Positions 4,212-62,504 of a DNA stretch of 64,000 nt are shown here, in pieces. The position numbers and the translations under genes were made by a program. The notes beneath the pieces were generated by a model. It saw nothing but the letters and a program-made list of their open reading frames with translations. It was not told the origin of the DNA and did no database searches. Numbering within the stretch: the first letter of the stretch is position 1; every line of letters starts with the position of its first letter. Where the stretch lies: positions 1 through 64,000 of the forward strand of contig NZ_FOBW01000017.1 in assembly GCF_900109925.1 (NCBI RefSeq). The letters run 5' to 3'. The stretch is from Mesobacillus persicus. Lineage in GTDB: Bacteria > Bacillota > Bacilli > Bacillales > Cytobacillaceae.

Positions 4212-4523
4212 TTAAAAGTATAAAAATAACATAACGATGAAACTAATTATCGTATACAAAACGGATCCATAAAAAACGGCACCTACATTTGATTTCAGTT
4301 CGGTATCCTTTTGGATTTTCCAAACAGACTCGCTTGCCTCATAGGTGGTTACCTTTGATAATACCCCTCCACTACTATTAAAGAAGAAAAGGATAACAGA
4401 TAACGCTAAGCCAATGAAAAAACTCCACTCACCATATGAGAAAGAAAAGAAAATACTCACACCCCAAACCAATAAACCGATTACCATTGCTGTTACCAGT
4501 GACCAACTAATATTCTTTTTCAC
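4212..4523 (-). CDS. Small membrane protein of unknown function
   Basis: The 103-residue protein has three predicted membrane helices at about 9-27, 31-47 and 81-103, with a polar loop of about 30 residues before the last one. It starts at GTG, supported by GGGAGG 6 bp upstream. Similar three-helix DUF5316-like proteins are common in Bacillus, but the match is by general pattern only. It stands alone between two unrelated genes. Confidence 0.6.
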   Translation of the reverse strand: MKKNISWSLVTAMVIGLLVWGVSIFFSFSYGEWSFFIGLALSVILFFFNSSGGVLSKVTTYEASESVWKIQKDTELKSNVGAVFYGSVLYTIISFIVMLFLYF

Positions 4524-56871: not shown

Positions 56872-57221
56872 AACAAGATTATACTAGTGTGAAAAATATT
56901 TACATCATTTGTGGAAAGACACATATGCGCAAAGGTATTGATGGATTGGCAACACTAATCCAAGATTCATTCGAACTTGATCCGTATGGTGATTCCATTT
57001 TCTTATTTGCAGGATGGAGAAAGGATCGCTATACATGTTTGTATTTTGACGGCGATGGCTTCGCCATGCTTTATAAACGTTTAGATAATGGCAAACTTCA
57101 ATGGCCCAAAAATGAAAAGGAAGTACGAAATCTTTCACAACAGGAGCTTCGCTGGCTCCTTGAAGGGTTATCAATCCAGCAGCCAAAAGCGATTCAACCA
57201 TCATCAAAAGGTGTTTTCTGA
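56868..57221 (+). CDS. tnpB: IS66 TnpB (OrfB)
   Basis: The 117-residue protein starts at GTG overlapping the tnpA stop. It has the full IS66 OrfB pattern: IYIICGKTHMRKGIDGLATLI, IFLFAGWRKDRYTCLYFDGDGFAMLYKRLD and the tail LSQQELRWLLEGLSIQQPKAI. OrfB is needed for IS66 transposition, but its activity is not known. Confidence 0.9.
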   Translation: MKQDYTSVKNIYIICGKTHMRKGIDGLATLIQDSFELDPYGDSIFLFAGWRKDRYTCLYFDGDGFAMLYKRLDNGKLQWPKNEKEVRNLSQQELRWLLEGLSIQQPKAIQPSSKGVF

Positions 57222-57309
57222 GTTCGAAATTGCCATCATTTATCTATATTCTACTATTCGAACTCGTTATAATAAGAGGAGTGAATCCGGTCGAAAAGTG
57301 GTGAATGAT

Positions 57310-58668
57310 ATGGCGAACGCTTCTTCTAAAAACGAAAATCCGTCCAAGAAATTAATTCGGCTACTCGAAGAGCAATTGGCTCATTCGAATCAACAAAATA
57401 AAGACTTGTCAAAGCAGATTGAAGTGTTAATCGATCAAGTGCGCCAATTAACTAAGCTGTTATATGGATAAAAAACTGAGAAATCAAAATATAATGCACC
57501 AGATGGGGAAGCGTCATTATTTGGTGATGAGCCGTCTTTTAGTGAAACTGAGAACATAGAAGAACAAAGCCAACAGACGATTTCTTATACTGTTGTTCGA
57601 ACTATTGAAAAGAAAAAACGAAATGATTCATTACGTGATGATATAGAAGTGGAAGCATTTCACTATCATCCAGAAAATACACAATGTGACTGTTGCCAAG
57701 GACAAATGATTGAAATTGGCTGTACAATCGCACGCGAAGAAGCAGAATTTATTCCCTCAAAAATGAAGAAAGTTCAACACATTGCACACGCGTATGAATG
57801 TAAAGTTTGCAAAGTCGACGCATCTCAAAAAGCGCAAATTAAACGTGGTAAAGCACCGCAGCCACCTATTCAACGTAGCATCGCAAGTCCTAGCGTACTT
57901 GCCAAAGTAATGTATGATAAATTTGCACAATACTTACCCCTTTACCGTCAGGTAAAGGAATGGGACCGTTATGGCCTGAATACCAATGATAAGAATCTAT
58001 CGAATTGGGTCATTTGTGCATCACATGATTGGCTATTGCCTATTTACGAACGAATGGAGCATCTGATGATGGCTAAATCGATTCTACATGTGGATGAAAC
58101 TTATGGACAAATCATCAACCGGTCCGATGGGAGATCAGGTCAAACCAATGCCTATAATTGGGTATATCGATGTGTCCCAAGCCAAGGACCGACCATGACT
58201 CTCTTCCAAAGCTCATTATCACGGTCTCGATCTATTCTTGAAAGTTTCATTGAAGGCTATTCTGGAACCATCGTTTGTGATGGTTATTCTGCTTATGATA
58301 AGTTGGAAGGCGTATCCTTCGTAAATTGTTGGGCGCATGTTCATCGTTATTGGCTGAAAGCAGACAGCAAAAATGGACGAATTGGTGTTAGCTATTGCGA
58401 CGATTTGTACCGGCTCGAAAGGAAATTTATACACTTGTCTCCGAGTAAGCGAAGAAAAAAACGCCAAAAGTACTCCAAGCCAATTGTGGATAAATTCCTC
58501 GAGTGGGTTAAAATTTCACCCTTCTACGGAAAAAATGCCCTAGCAAAAGCAGCTGAATACACATTGAATCGAGCAAATGGACTCAAAAAGTTCTTGAACG
58601 ATGGTCGAATTGAGATTGATAATAATCCAGCCTTATACAAATCATTAAATTATTCTGAGCTTTTCTAG
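57310..58668 (+). pseudogene. IS66 transposase TnpC with a nonsense codon and lost C-terminus
   Basis: The frame starts at 57310 (MANASSKNENPSKKLIRLLEEQL, a leucine-zipper head). It is broken by TAA at 57469-57471 in LLYG-stop-KTEKSKY, where LLFGxxSEK is usual. It then continues with the zinc-finger CDCCQG, the DDE core (ILHVDETYGQ and VCDGYSAYDKL) and RIEIDNNPA near the catalytic Glu region. The last residues LYKSLNYSELF come from the RIT end; the normal ENAIRP-type tail is missing. Confidence 0.85.
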
Positions 58669-58713
58669 AAAACCTCGTAATTTCAAGGTTTCTTCTTCAA
58701 ATGCTCAGAATAA
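58650..58713. repeat. RIT left terminal palindrome
   Basis: TTATTCTGAGC and GCTCAGAATAA are separated by 42 bp. The pair is probably the recombinase binding site. Confidence 0.8.
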
Positions 58714-58782
58714 TTTTTTTGTTTTCCGGATATTACTGATTTGTCAGATTCCTGGCAATTAAATATATCGGAGGGTAAACAA

Positions 58783-60024
58783 TTGGATGATTTTAAAGAA
58801 CTGTCAGTTGCAACTCTTGTGAAAATCAAATCGTTTGGCATTAAAAGTAAAAGTGTAATAAAAAGTTTCAAGCGATCTTGCAGGCTTCTTGAAACTTTCC
58901 TAAAAGAAAACAACCTGAATTTCTCTGCCGAGAATGCTGAGCAGTGGCTTTCGGGATTTGTGATTCTAAAGAAAGGAACACGAAGTCACCGTGACCTGTA
59001 TCTATCTCATAGGCGTGCTATGCTGCTTTTGCTTGACATGCAGAATAATCAACTTGGCGAATGGAAGGTATACCCCTTAAAGATAGCTCAAAGACCAGCC
59101 ACCGACCACTATAGAAACTTACTAGAACAGTATAAACAATATCTTTTACAAGAAAATATGTCGAAAGCTACTATAATATTTTCACTTAGAGTGGTAAGCA
59201 TGTTTTTTTGTTATCTTGAAAGTATGAAAATAGACAACTTAAGCGAGCTCACAGCTAAAAATGTCTCAGACTTTTGGGGAAATGATGTACTTTCAGGCAG
59301 AAAGCCAACGGGTATACAGGCTTATGCATATAAGTTAAAAAAGTTCTTCATTTTTCTCGAAAAGAATGGATTCATTAGTCAAAAAAACCTATATCTTGCA
59401 ATTCCAAAGGTTTTTGCAAAGCAGGTTTCAATAGTAACAACGATATCCAAAGATGCTGAGCAGAAGCTTATATCCGATGATAAGCTATCAACTCCGTTGG
59501 GAAAGAGGGATCAGGCTATAATTCTTCTAGCGTTACGTCTTGGAGTGCGACGTTCTGATTTAGTCGGGTTAAAATTCAAAAACATTGACTGGCAGAATGA
59601 TTCGAAAACATTTATACAGCGGAAAACGAAAATTCCGGTAACACTCCCCCTTCTAACAGATGTTGGAAATGCTTTGATGGATTATATACTCAATTCACGA
59701 ATGAATTCTGAAGCAGATGAAATTTTTCTAAGAGGACATGCACCTTACAAGGCAATTCAGCCGGCCTCTGCTAGTAAAGTTCCGCTTAAATACCTTTCAG
59801 AGTTTGACTCGGACGATTGCCCTGAGAAGGGATTACATATTTTGAGAAGGACTGCAGCAACAAACTTGTTTGAAAACAATGTATCTTCAAGTATCATATC
59901 TGCATCGCTTGGCCATTCGAATCCAGATTCAGCAGATGTCTACATTTCTACTGATTCCAAAAAGATGCGTAAATGTGCTTTAAGCCTCTATGGAATAGAA
60001 TGTTCAAGGGAGGAATTGCAATGA
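58783..60024 (+). CDS. RIT tyrosine recombinase 1
   Basis: The protein has 413 residues from TTG 58783, 7 bp after GGAGGG; an upstream in-frame TTG at 58741 has no site. It has an N-terminal SAM-like core-binding domain (about 100-200) and a catalytic domain with Arg in LRLGVRRSDLVGL, His-x-x-Arg in LHILRRTAATNLF, His in SLGHSNPDSADVY and the nucleophile Tyr in the same block. All five catalytic residues are present, so it may be active. It overlaps the next gene by ATGA. Confidence 0.85.
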   Translation: MDDFKELSVATLVKIKSFGIKSKSVIKSFKRSCRLLETFLKENNLNFSAENAEQWLSGFVILKKGTRSHRDLYLSHRRAMLLLLDMQNNQLGEWKVYPLKIAQRPATDHYRNLLEQYKQYLLQENMSKATIIFSLRVVSMFFCYLESMKIDNLSELTAKNVSDFWGNDVLSGRKPTGIQAYAYKLKKFFIFLEKNGFISQKNLYLAIPKVFAKQVSIVTTISKDAEQKLISDDKLSTPLGKRDQAIILLALRLGVRRSDLVGLKFKNIDWQNDSKTFIQRKTKIPVTLPLLTDVGNALMDYILNSRMNSEADEIFLRGHAPYKAIQPASASKVPLKYLSEFDSDDCPEKGLHILRRTAATNLFENNVSSSIISASLGHSNPDSADVYISTDSKKMRKCALSLYGIECSREELQ

Positions 60025-60807
60025 ATGAGAGATTTATAAGCAACTTTGCACAATATATGGAAAGCATGATAAGAGAAAAACATAATTCAGGATTTTCTTT
60101 AAAATATATGGATAAGCACCTTGATGAGTTTGATTGGTTCTGCAGGAACAACTTTCCCAATAAGGTTTCACTTGATAAGGAACTGGTCGAGGCATGGGTA
60201 TATCATACAGAATCAAAATCTATACAGGAAGTACAGAAACGCTTTCGAACAATGATGCATCTTGGTAACTATATGCTACCCCTGCGGGGTGAAACATGCA
60301 TTACTAAAAACAAGCTTAAAAGAGCAAAACCCAAGGAGCCGCATATTTTTACAGATGCTCAGTTAGAAGAGTTCTTTCGAATTGGTATATATGTCGGCAG
60401 ATTTGACTGAACTTTGTCGTAAATATGATTCTATTATGGAGACTAAAAACCCGGGACGTGAATATTTTTTTCCATCTAGTAGGGCAGCTAATTATAACAA
60501 TACTTCGGTCTGCAGGTTGTTTGACAACATACTTAGAAAGACTTCATTCTTTGAAAAGACCAGTAAGAAGCCAACCTGTCACGGGTTAAGACATACTTTT
60601 GCAGTGAACAGTATGAGGAAGTGCATCGAAGATGGGGAAAATTTCAATATTATGATCCGATACCTAAGCCGATATATGGGACACTCATGCCCGCAAAATA
60701 CCATGTATTACTTACACATGGTAGTGACCCTTGTTCCTGAAATCCGAAAAATGGCAAAAGGATATGAGGATATCCTTAACGGTGTAGCATATGTTGAAGA
60801 ATATTAA
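60021..60807 (+). pseudogene. RIT tyrosine recombinase 2, internally deleted
   Basis: The first frame (60021-60410) gives the N-terminal part to DAQLEEFFRI and then GIYVGRFD-stop. The second (from about 60382) resumes at ADLTELCRKYDSIMETKNPGREYFFPSS. The stretch carrying the first catalytic Arg and the Lys beta-hairpin is missing. The C-terminal half is kept: HGLRHTFAV and YMGHSCPQNTMYYLH. A deletion with frame change is the simplest explanation. Confidence 0.8.
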
Positions 60808-61838
60808 TAAGCAAAAAATGTTTTTTATTTATGTAAGTGATTTTCTCTTCCTGCATCTTAAAGACCATGAGCATAAGTCTAATAATACGGTAGTTGCATA
60901 TAGACAGGGGCTGAACAGTTTTAGGGAATTCACAAAGGAAGTATATGGGAAAGGGGTTGATAAACTTACATTTGAAATAGTGACCCAGGATGTGGTACGA
61001 GAGTACCTGAAATGGCTAGTAGAGAAAAAACGATGTACCATTACTACAAGAAATCATCGGCTAACTAATTAAACAATATTTTCAATATTGTTCTGATAGA
61101 GACATATCCCTTGCTCCACAGTATATCAAAATATCAAAAATCAAACATGTTACCGTACGTGCTAAAAAAAGGAACTGGATGACACGTGATGCTATCAAAG
61201 TAATCCTCGAACAACCACCAAAGACAAAAATAGGAATTCGCGATAGGTTTTTCATGATATTTCTATATGGAACAGGTGCAAGGGTTTCGGAAGCACTTAA
61301 TGTAAGGCTTAAGGATATAGAAATTGCTACCAAAGACCCTTTTGTAAGAATTCTGGGTAAAGGAAACAAACCGAGGTGTGTACCTTTACTTGATATCACA
61401 GTAGAAAATCTTGATTATTACCTGTCGGTTTATCATCCTAATGGGTTGCCTGAAGATTACCTTTTTTACACTGTCATTAAAGGCACTAAGGATTGTATGT
61501 CCGTTGCAAATGCGGAACGCTTCATAAAAAAATATGGAGAAGCTGCCCGTAAGACCTGTAGTCAGGTGCCTGAAAATGTGTATCCACATCTTTTCAGACA
61601 TAGTTTTGGTGCACATTTGTACAGAATGGGATTTCCATTGCCGGTGATTGCAAAACTGCTTGACCATGAATCGTTGGAAACTACAGAAATATATGCACAA
61701 ACGGATACAGAAATGATAAATGCAGCTTTTAGGGAAGTAGAAGAGTCCTTACAGAGTCAAAACCCTTTAGAGTTGAAGGAAAAGAAATGGAAACTTGCAG
61801 ATGAAGAAACCCTTGCTAAGCTATACGGATTGAAATAA
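60791..61838 (+). pseudogene. RIT tyrosine recombinase 3, frameshifted
   Basis: ATG 60791 overlaps the second recombinase gene by 17 bp. The first frame ends at 61072 (TTRNHRLTN-stop). A change of frame near 61065-61075 restores YFQYCSDRDISLAPQYIKI and the rest to 61838. The catalytic domain is otherwise intact: GTGARVSEAL (Arg), HLFRHSFGAHL (His and Arg) and LLDHESLETTEIYA (His and Tyr). Confidence 0.8.
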
Positions 61839-61849
61839 TCCCCAAAAAA

Positions 61850-61913
61850 TTATTCTGAGCATTTTAGGACAAATCAAGGTAATTATGCAGTTTTCTTACA
61901 ATGCTCAGAATAA
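61850..61913. repeat. RIT right terminal palindrome
   Basis: TTATTCTGAGC and GCTCAGAATAA are separated by 42 bp, mirroring the left terminus. Confidence 0.8.
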
Positions 61914-61931
61914 CCTAATAATTGGTATAAT

Positions 61932-61968
61932 GCTGGATTATTGTCTATTTCAATTCGACCATCGAATA
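61932..61968 (-). pseudogene. IS66 tnpC stub in inverted orientation
   Basis: The minus strand reads DGRIEIDNNPA and joins the RIT end at AATAATCCAGC, precisely as tnpC does at the left end. About 37 bp are recognisable; beyond that the DNA is IS21 istA. The sequence differs from the left copy at several bases, so it came from another IS66 copy. Confidence 0.65.
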
Positions 61969-62504
61969 GTCCTTTCGCATATGAAAGTTGGCTGCACGGC
62001 AATGTAGTTACGAAAATATATGCTTTCACCTTTTCACCAGTATCCCTATCAATAATAAATGCCTTTGTACCCGCCCAATCTACCTCCAGTATTTCTCCTG
62101 GTTTTCTACGAATACGCAAAGTTGTTTTATGTTTCTGGGCATATTCACCATAAATGACGGATAAAACGGCGATACGAGTAAGGGATATTATTGTTCGCTC
62201 GACTTTCTGCCTCATATTCATGGTGTAAAAGCGAAAGAGTAACGTCCGGTTTGGCCAACTCTTTATGGATGTAATCAAAGTCGAGTGGTTGCCTCCAGAG
62301 GCTACCAATGATTTTTCAGGAAACAGAAAATCTTCAATCCATTTATCGTCCATTTCCTTGTCTAATGGATACGTCAATCCTTTCCTCATAGCCATATCAA
62401 TGACCTCTGTTACTTTCTGACGAGAAGTGTCCAGTACTTGCAGAAATTCCCCTCAAACTGATTCCCTCATCATGTAATTCCAGTACCTTCCGATAATGGA
62501 TCAT
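61969..62504 (-). pseudogene. IS21-type IstA, N-terminal fragment
   Basis: From ATG 62504 it reads MIHYRKVLELHDEGISLRGISAS. A frameshift near 62440 follows, then VIDMAMRKGLTYPLDKEMDDKWIEDFLFPEK. It proceeds to KTTLRIRRKPGEILEVDWAGTKAFIIDRDTGE, which carries the first catalytic Asp, and ends at TTLPCSQLSYAK, where IS66 sequence starts. Confidence 0.75.

Follow-up and report, generated by a model that had tools for sequence, protein, structure and literature searches.

A RIT element at the DNNPA motif of an IS66 transposase gene in Mesobacillus persicus, and the layout of palindrome and 6-bp cores in related RIT elements

We analysed a RIT element, a unit of three consecutive tyrosine recombinase genes, in the first 64,000 nt of contig NZ_FOBW01000017.1 of Mesobacillus persicus (assembly GCF_900109925.1, labelled G000 here); this whole stretch is referred to below as the window. 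The element appears to have entered an IS66 transposase gene at the codons for Pro-Ala in its conserved DNNPA motif. Comparison with other RITs suggests that the mobile unit is a circle, in which the 3.3-kb RIT body and a palindrome of about 20 bp, composed of two arm-like sequences, would be joined by two 6-bp cores. Either junction of this circle would recombine with a 6-bp target core, so that each outer end of the insertion carries a core and the core of the unused junction separates the palindrome from the RIT; related RITs would keep to one motif in the genes of other mobile elements. In the window, two RIT-bearing IS66 copies in opposite orientation would have recombined within the RIT to give a product with two 5' flanks (5'/5') and a missing palindrome, and a later deletion would have fused the right tnpC stub to an IS21 element. 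Taken as a whole, from the integration in DNNPA and the two-junction circle to the inversion-type recombination and the later deletion, this explanation is in our judgement quite likely.

The RIT of the window is a decayed element of 3298 bp on the forward strand, at 58633..61930. Sequence, inverted repeats, Pfam matches and comparison of the ends support this extent, which corrects the span of 58600-61968 given in an initial annotation made from the sequence alone, while the presence of a RIT was rightly recognised there. The ends were placed by comparison with relatives, with the register set by hand from two of them (L061 and L062), the automatic register having slipped. The size falls in the range of about 3.3-3.5 kb, the ends are inverted repeats, and ritA, ritB and ritC follow one another on one strand with a PF00589 match in each. 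The ritA gene (58783..60021) is open and encodes 413 aa (PF00589, 3.8e-18); ritB and ritC are broken, each being a remnant in two frames. In ritB (60021..60807; ORFs, open reading frames, 59973-60410 and 60382-60807) PF00589 matches the second piece with 3.9e-7, and no Pfam family was found in the first; in ritC (60791..61838; ORFs 60791-61072 and 61179-61838) it also matches the second piece, with 3.4e-32. Besides these pieces, no further sense-strand ORF of at least 80 aa that could represent a fourth gene, of the type found in GInts and in strand-biased circularizing elements (SEs), is present within 58633-61930. The A-end (58633..58659, forward strand) consists of the outer arm TTATACAAAT, 7 bp and the inner arm TTATTCTGAG, the two arms being spaced 17 bp as in other RITs; at the C-end (61904..61930, reverse strand) arm comparison gives the outer arm TTATACCAAT, 7 bp and the same inner arm TTATTCTGAG.

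The inverted copies extend beyond these ends to 58599-58719 and 61844-61964 (121 nt, 80% complementary), and on each side the RIT is preceded by a 6-bp core. The left core, CCAGCC (58627..58632, forward strand), represents the codons Pro-Ala of DNNPA, its register being given by the arm repeats and by L061 (CCCGCG) and L062 (CCCGCC); the right core, CCAGCA, lies at 61931..61936 on the reverse strand. On the left, the 5' part of IS66 tnpC (57649..58632, forward strand) is open up to the core and carries the DDE_Tnp_IS66 domain (PF03050, 1.7e-63, 215 bits; NF033517, 1.8e-76). On the right, sequence and inverted repeat reveal a short 5'-side piece of IS66 tnpC (61931..61964, reverse strand), too short for a domain call, which we read as a second IS66 copy. 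The 34 bases at 58599-58632 and the 34 bases at 61931-61964 both end in the core, both encode DGRIEIDNNPA and differ at 4 of 34 positions, all synonymous; as the residues are the same despite four base differences, two IS66 copies are likelier than a fresh duplication. The initial annotation had stated that the RIT is bounded on both sides by the same IS66 stretch in inverted orientation, that both pieces meet it at the same base, and that they are no simple duplication, and the comparison bears out all three statements, with the junction exactly at the core on each side. In the genome of M. persicus, a degenerate GRIEIDNNP pattern occurs at these two places only, and the same pattern read backwards, as a control, gave 0 matches. 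Upstream of the RIT (57088-57471) this tnpC has an in-frame stop with the ORF end at 57471, which indicates that this IS66 gene is decayed quite aside from the RIT insertion.

Relatives are multicopy elements, and the window copy itself is the one described above with broken ritB and ritC. Its nearest relatives were found in G088, of the same family (RIT pieces at 84 and 96% nucleotide identity), and in G325, of the same order (93-94%); only one RIT end is readable in each (L061 and L062, respectively). Reading outward from the RIT, these ends show a 6-bp core (CCCGCG in L061, CCCGCC in L062), then an imperfect palindrome of 20 bp, the core reversed and the 3' half of IS66 tnpC, which in G088 reads PAENAIRPSVVGRKNW. 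IS66 tnpC was thus present in the flanks where the initial annotation had advised looking for it, and in L061, L062 and the window (CCAGCC and CCAGCA) the core falls on the same two IS66 codons. Because L061 and L062 sit at the same codons but show the other half of tnpC, the sequences identify the 5' IS66 block of the window as target DNA and not as part of the element. The earlier interpretation is therefore partly supported: its first alternative, that the RIT recognises a conserved IS66 site, was right in kind, as all three elements lie at the Pro-Ala codons of DNNPA; the site is not the whole stretch of DGRIEIDNNPA codons, however, since the shared and exchanged part is the 6-bp core CCNGCN and different motifs, in genes of other mobile elements, serve the other RIT groups. 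The M. persicus genome carries a second RIT (L163, G000:C19:15500-28000, with ritA at 4361), which has the usual layout and lies at the GRKNW motif inside another IS66 tnpC, between VIGR and KNW (VIG[RK]NW), about 12 codons past the site used in the window; both tnpC halves, the palindrome and three equal cores TCGCAA are present.

To describe the usual layout, 128 loci, the window included, were collected, which yielded 111 candidate elements, 109 of them with recognisable ends (2 of the 111 were dropped). A further 27 of the 109, among them the window, were dropped for unclear ends, and removal of 7 duplicates from the 82 clear elements left 75. The genome loci were picked as the best RitA or RitC matches from 397 genomes within the order and 398 within the phylum, so the sample is not random. 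The usual order is target, 6-bp core, RIT, core, 20-bp palindrome, core, target. A palindrome of at least 7 of 10 pairs was present at exactly one end in 62 of the 75 elements, at neither end in 10 and at both in 3; shuffled flanks, given an identical register search, reached this in 186 of 1500 cases, so that the threshold of 7/10 pairs alone is not stringent. When the register was chosen without the core term, a one-ended palindrome was found in 62 of 74 elements against 213 of 1480 shuffled cases at 7 or more pairs, in 59 of 74 against 31 of 1480 at 8 pairs, and in 42 of 74 against 2 of 1480 at 9 pairs. In the 62 elements the palindrome adjoins ritA in 37 and ritC in 25, and its arms resemble the arms of the RIT ends, which are spaced 17 bp.

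The three cores of an element tend to agree. Among the 62 elements the palindrome-side core equals the middle core in 43, the two outer cores are equal in 37, and the middle core equals the RIT-side core in 35; identity between elements is about 1%, and in 213 shuffled cases the three pairings agreed in 0, 0 and 37, respectively. We considered that the agreement might be a product of register choice, in which core matches had been scored, and rejected this, the counts being unchanged (43, 37 and 35 of 62) without core terms. All three cores are equal in 31 elements, only the palindrome-side and middle cores in 12, only the outer two in 6, only the middle and RIT-side cores in 4, and all differ in 9. 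The excess of the class in which the palindrome-side core equals only the middle one suggests that the core brought by the donor remains beside the palindrome and that the RIT side receives the core of the target. We rejected the idea that the middle core is in every case a copy of the target made at insertion, because 6 of 62 elements have a middle core unlike their two agreeing outer cores, and in another 9 no two cores match.

The flanks themselves fit a single interrupted gene. Across the joined flanks an ORF of at least 130 aa, made of one 5' and one 3' half, was found in 54 of 66 elements; this set comprises the 62 and four added by hand (L098 at 5060, L109, L202 and L206) that the filter had dropped or whose palindrome is weak. 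For the 62, the median length of the spanning ORF was 290-294 aa when the join loses a multiple of three bases (292 at 6) and 86.5-98 otherwise; as any multiple of three scores alike, this demonstrates the frame and not the exact value of 6. Of ten named plasmid records fetched, nine were examined, that is, all but the one from Mycobacterium. A palindrome of 8-10 of 10 pairs stands at one end of the RITs from Rhodococcus, Sagittula and Marinobacter; the Bacteroides finegoldii RIT has one of 8/10, and its ends match poorly; in pHG1 the two flanks are equal and a palindrome is absent; and four are unclear, with 5/10 in pENH92 and Candidatus Megaera and 6/10 in EbN1 plasmid 2 and pNGR234a.

Genomes with several copies bear on the circle. 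In G221 (contig C1) there are 20 near-identical RIT copies with 40 ends, 38 of which were read, in copies of one IS21 istA (identified by NF033546 for one copy, L071). They are accompanied by 21 palindromes, each beside a RIT end and always on the 3' side of istA, and the RIT occurs in either orientation with respect to the gene. A single base pair of the palindrome is asymmetric; the C arm of the palindrome faces the ritA end and the T arm the ritC end in 21 of 21 cases. This constant facing with both RIT orientations fits one circle of palindrome, core, RIT and core, opened at either junction; both the circle and the catalysis that would open it are what we infer from such copies. Two exact RIT-free sites, that is, empty sites, are present in the same genome. 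In G705, the cores GCCGCC, ACCCCC and TCCACC are permuted between two copies, as expected if cores travel with the unit. A flip of the RIT body by site-specific inversion was considered and is unneeded in G221, where the arm facing is kept in 21 of 21 in both orientations; two IMG/VR relatives, L095 and L097, have the palindrome turned the opposite way, from which the RIT may flip over longer times. Solo palindromes that could be scars of departed elements were looked for in G190 and G221 and none was found, each palindrome there adjoining a RIT end.

Unlike the usual layout, the window RIT has no 20-bp palindrome at either end. Given that 62 of 75 other elements have one at exactly one end and that a 5' and a 3' half are joined in 54 of 66, the presence of two 5' halves in the window looks like a derived state. 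A similar state occurs in G190, which has six RITs with 0, 2, 1, 1, 1 and 1 palindromes, six in total; the copy with none has two 5' flanks and the copy with two has two 3' flanks (3'/3'), as predicted by an exchange between two complete inverted copies. The 5'/5' copy of G190 (L064) lies in a 1386-bp inverted repeat (99.5%). The RIT of pHG1 is enclosed by inverted repeats of 3119 bp (99.87%), in which the 5' genes of another RIT are found. L170 is probably also 5'/5', as its flanks agree, the left one being truncated at the contig edge. L066, L117, L185 and L285 each have two palindromes, and both flanks were seen to be 3' halves for L066 and L285. The exchange of this kind that we propose for the window would have been followed by the deletion to IS21: directly beyond the right IS66 piece lies a 5' fragment of IS21 istA (61965..62395, reverse strand), cut at that piece. 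It matches NF033546 with 1.7e-8, below the cut-off of the model, has no Pfam family, and in tblastn its residues 1-142 of 170 align at 56% identity with an annotated istA, the similarity stopping at 142. IS21 after the right IS66 piece had been reported in the initial annotation, at a distance of 37 bases that is in fact 34.

Three other explanations of the window were weighed. The first is a single RIT-driven event, in which both circle junctions recombined with two target copies, on a sister molecule or in a second IS66, giving a head-to-head fusion. It would agree with the use of both junctions of the inferred circle in G221 and with the recurrence of the 5'/5' state in L064, pHG1, the window and probably L170, but it would lose the palindrome, yet the tally of G190 adds up (0, 2 and four times 1); we regard it as unlikely. 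It is quite improbable that a piece of IS66 was copied or inverted beside the right RIT end by IS21 activity, with the RIT uninvolved: the right piece has only 34 bases and abuts IS21, but its junction with the RIT falls exactly at the core, on the base also used at the left end, and a random rearrangement would arrive there only by chance. Least credible of all is that the IS66 blocks are part of the ends of this RIT, captured once and now mobile, for although a block stands at both ends, inverted and in register with the RIT inverted repeat, the CGATGGTCGAATTGA block, which the initial annotation thought might have moved with the element, is absent from the one readable end of each of G088 and G325, where an end of the same sequence runs via the palindrome into the tnpC 3' half, the four differences are all synonymous as in a coding gene, and about 1 kb of tnpC adjoins the left block without a break.

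Several observations weigh against the explanation by integration, circle and inversion-type exchange that we prefer. In 6 of 62 elements the two outer cores agree but the middle one is different, and in 9 of 62 no two cores match; 10 of 75 elements have no palindrome of at least 7/10, among them L202 and L206, which have a weaker one (5/10) at the right place; and clear cases make up only 3 of the 9 named plasmid RITs. The G221 copies are not independent events, as IS21 may have multiplied with the RIT inside, so that 20 copies are not 20 insertions, and this genome has a copy with two palindromes and no copy was seen in it without one. In the assembly of the window no 3'/3' partner of the window copy was found; a search of this genome for IS66 C-terminal parts (PF13817, E up to 0.001) gave two pieces, both of other IS66 copies. 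With a decayed copy and 34 IS66 bases in the right flank, the history proposed for the window rests on analogy.

The targets of RITs were surveyed by Pfam (E up to 0.001) in 50 pieces chosen by hand out of 78 single-flank pieces. A transposase, IstB, reverse transcriptase or integrase was found in 32 of the 50, with L067, L179, L182 and L198 below Pfam's own cut-off and L082 resting on HTH_21 and a weak rve match. The other 18 comprise C5 DNA methylase (4), phage structural proteins (2), ParA, ArdA, DruA, AAA and amidoligase (1 each), a helix-turn-helix only (3) and no family (4). By NCBIfam, L071 and L184 match IS21 and L065 matches IS481, being pieces below the cut-offs for whole proteins, and L070 has no NCBIfam match. 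In L189, L192 and L204 the cores disagree, which makes the boundary or the target there doubtful. The targets are thus mostly genes of other mobile elements, the interrupted motifs are conserved ones, and in a tree of RitC the elements group largely by motif. The interrupted motifs we take to be Walker A and B of IstB, EKG[HN]VE of IstA, Y[AV]DNG of IS481 type, KGKIE, DWYSR of IS3, WAH, GRKNW and DNN of IS66, PQGG of group II introns and the RH motif of a Rit-type recombinase. L233 (pHG1 118000-150000), L236, L239, L242, L106 and L113 are RITs inside other RITs or tyrosine recombinase genes, several of them presumably inserted at the catalytic RH or Tyr motif. C5 DNA methylase genes are interrupted at conserved motifs in L108, L118, L194 and L098, three of these four being IMG/VR contigs. 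The C-end flanks of L079 and L076 resemble group II intron RNA; Rfam group-II-D1D4-3 matches L079:8761-8925 (reverse strand), about 1.8 kb past the RIT end, and the L076 flank has no Rfam match at the gathering score.

The core also has a preferred codon phase. With the core read towards the RIT, its positions 1 and 4 are the wobble bases in 46 of 54 elements, positions 3 and 6 in 4 elements and positions 2 and 5 in another 4; without the four elements added by hand, the counts are 43, 3 and 4 of 50. When the 54 elements are clustered by RitC at 60% identity, 22 of 29 clusters have only the 1,4 phase, 3 only 3,6, 3 only 2,5, and 1 is mixed. The 2,5 class consists of L087, L090, L104 and L187, with a putative ORF in each; L187 was probably read on the wrong strand, because its sister copy L186 gives amidoligase. 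The window group belongs to the 3,6 class, and its variable bases are at 3 and 6 too. Cores are unequal at positions 1 to 6 in 19, 5, 9, 24, 2 and 5 of the 62 elements, and with these counts and the window group varying at 3 and 6, a rule that mismatches are tolerated at positions 1 and 4 only proved too strong. In our reading, synonymous changes in a conserved target are tolerated, whether by the enzyme or through selection, the sequences fitting either. We lean somewhat towards a wider view, in which RITs would be active-site parasites of other mobile elements, each group homing into one conserved motif, with the core in a preferred codon phase and mismatches mostly at wobble bases, and with a circle that has a mobile palindrome and two equivalent exchange sites and whose three 6-mers record the last site.

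Insertion in IS66 has a precedent in ritA1B1C1 of Cupriavidus metallidurans, which lies in an IS66 tnpA (PMC2864759). Another RIT was described in a Tn6049-like transposase gene, where an inverted repeat and an overlapping palindrome were seen and no convincing binding sites (PMC3414803). Subgroups of Rit proteins have been described (PMC8138268), and a comparison of 2023 lists target choice and movement of RITs as not tested (PMC10214605). In the available parts of these reports, the known RITs resemble those analysed here in having three consecutive tyrosine recombinase genes, about 3.3-3.5 kb, an end inverted repeat and a palindromic sequence, as well as insertion in transposase genes, IS66 included (PMC2864759, PMC3414803). 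That RITs occur in IS66 is therefore already known; the 6-bp core, the one-sided palindrome and the target rule by codon motif are undescribed in the portions of the RIT literature compared, which did not cover Ricker 2013 and Van Houdt 2009.

The layout defines attachment sites and empty sites exactly, allows RIT boundaries to be annotated to the base, and provides a rule of motif and codon phase that can be tested. It would explain the nesting of RITs in transposases, group II introns and each other, and it hints at tyrosine recombinases able to tolerate synonymous changes in their target.

Homing endonucleases and inteins likewise use conserved coding motifs and tolerate wobble bases, as in our reading of RITs; they differ in their enzymes, and a RIT disrupts the gene as a whole with no splicing out. 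Like the RITs here, GInts use tyrosine recombinases, and their staggered cuts of 6 nt, followed by heteroduplex repair through which the attachment site is altered, may be likened to the RIT cores; unlike them, GInts have ginABCD with cargo and direct imperfect repeats, and the available text of that report contains neither "palindrom" nor "inverted repeat" (PMC5385486). SEs share with the RITs here a 6-bp spacer between the end motifs at the circle joint and outer 6-mers of which one is donor- and one target-derived, but have four conserved genes, with no 20-bp palindrome or second internal junction mentioned in the part of the report compared (PMC10214605). The permutation of cores in G705 can be likened to the 6-nt changes of both GInts and SEs (PMC5385486, PMC10214605).

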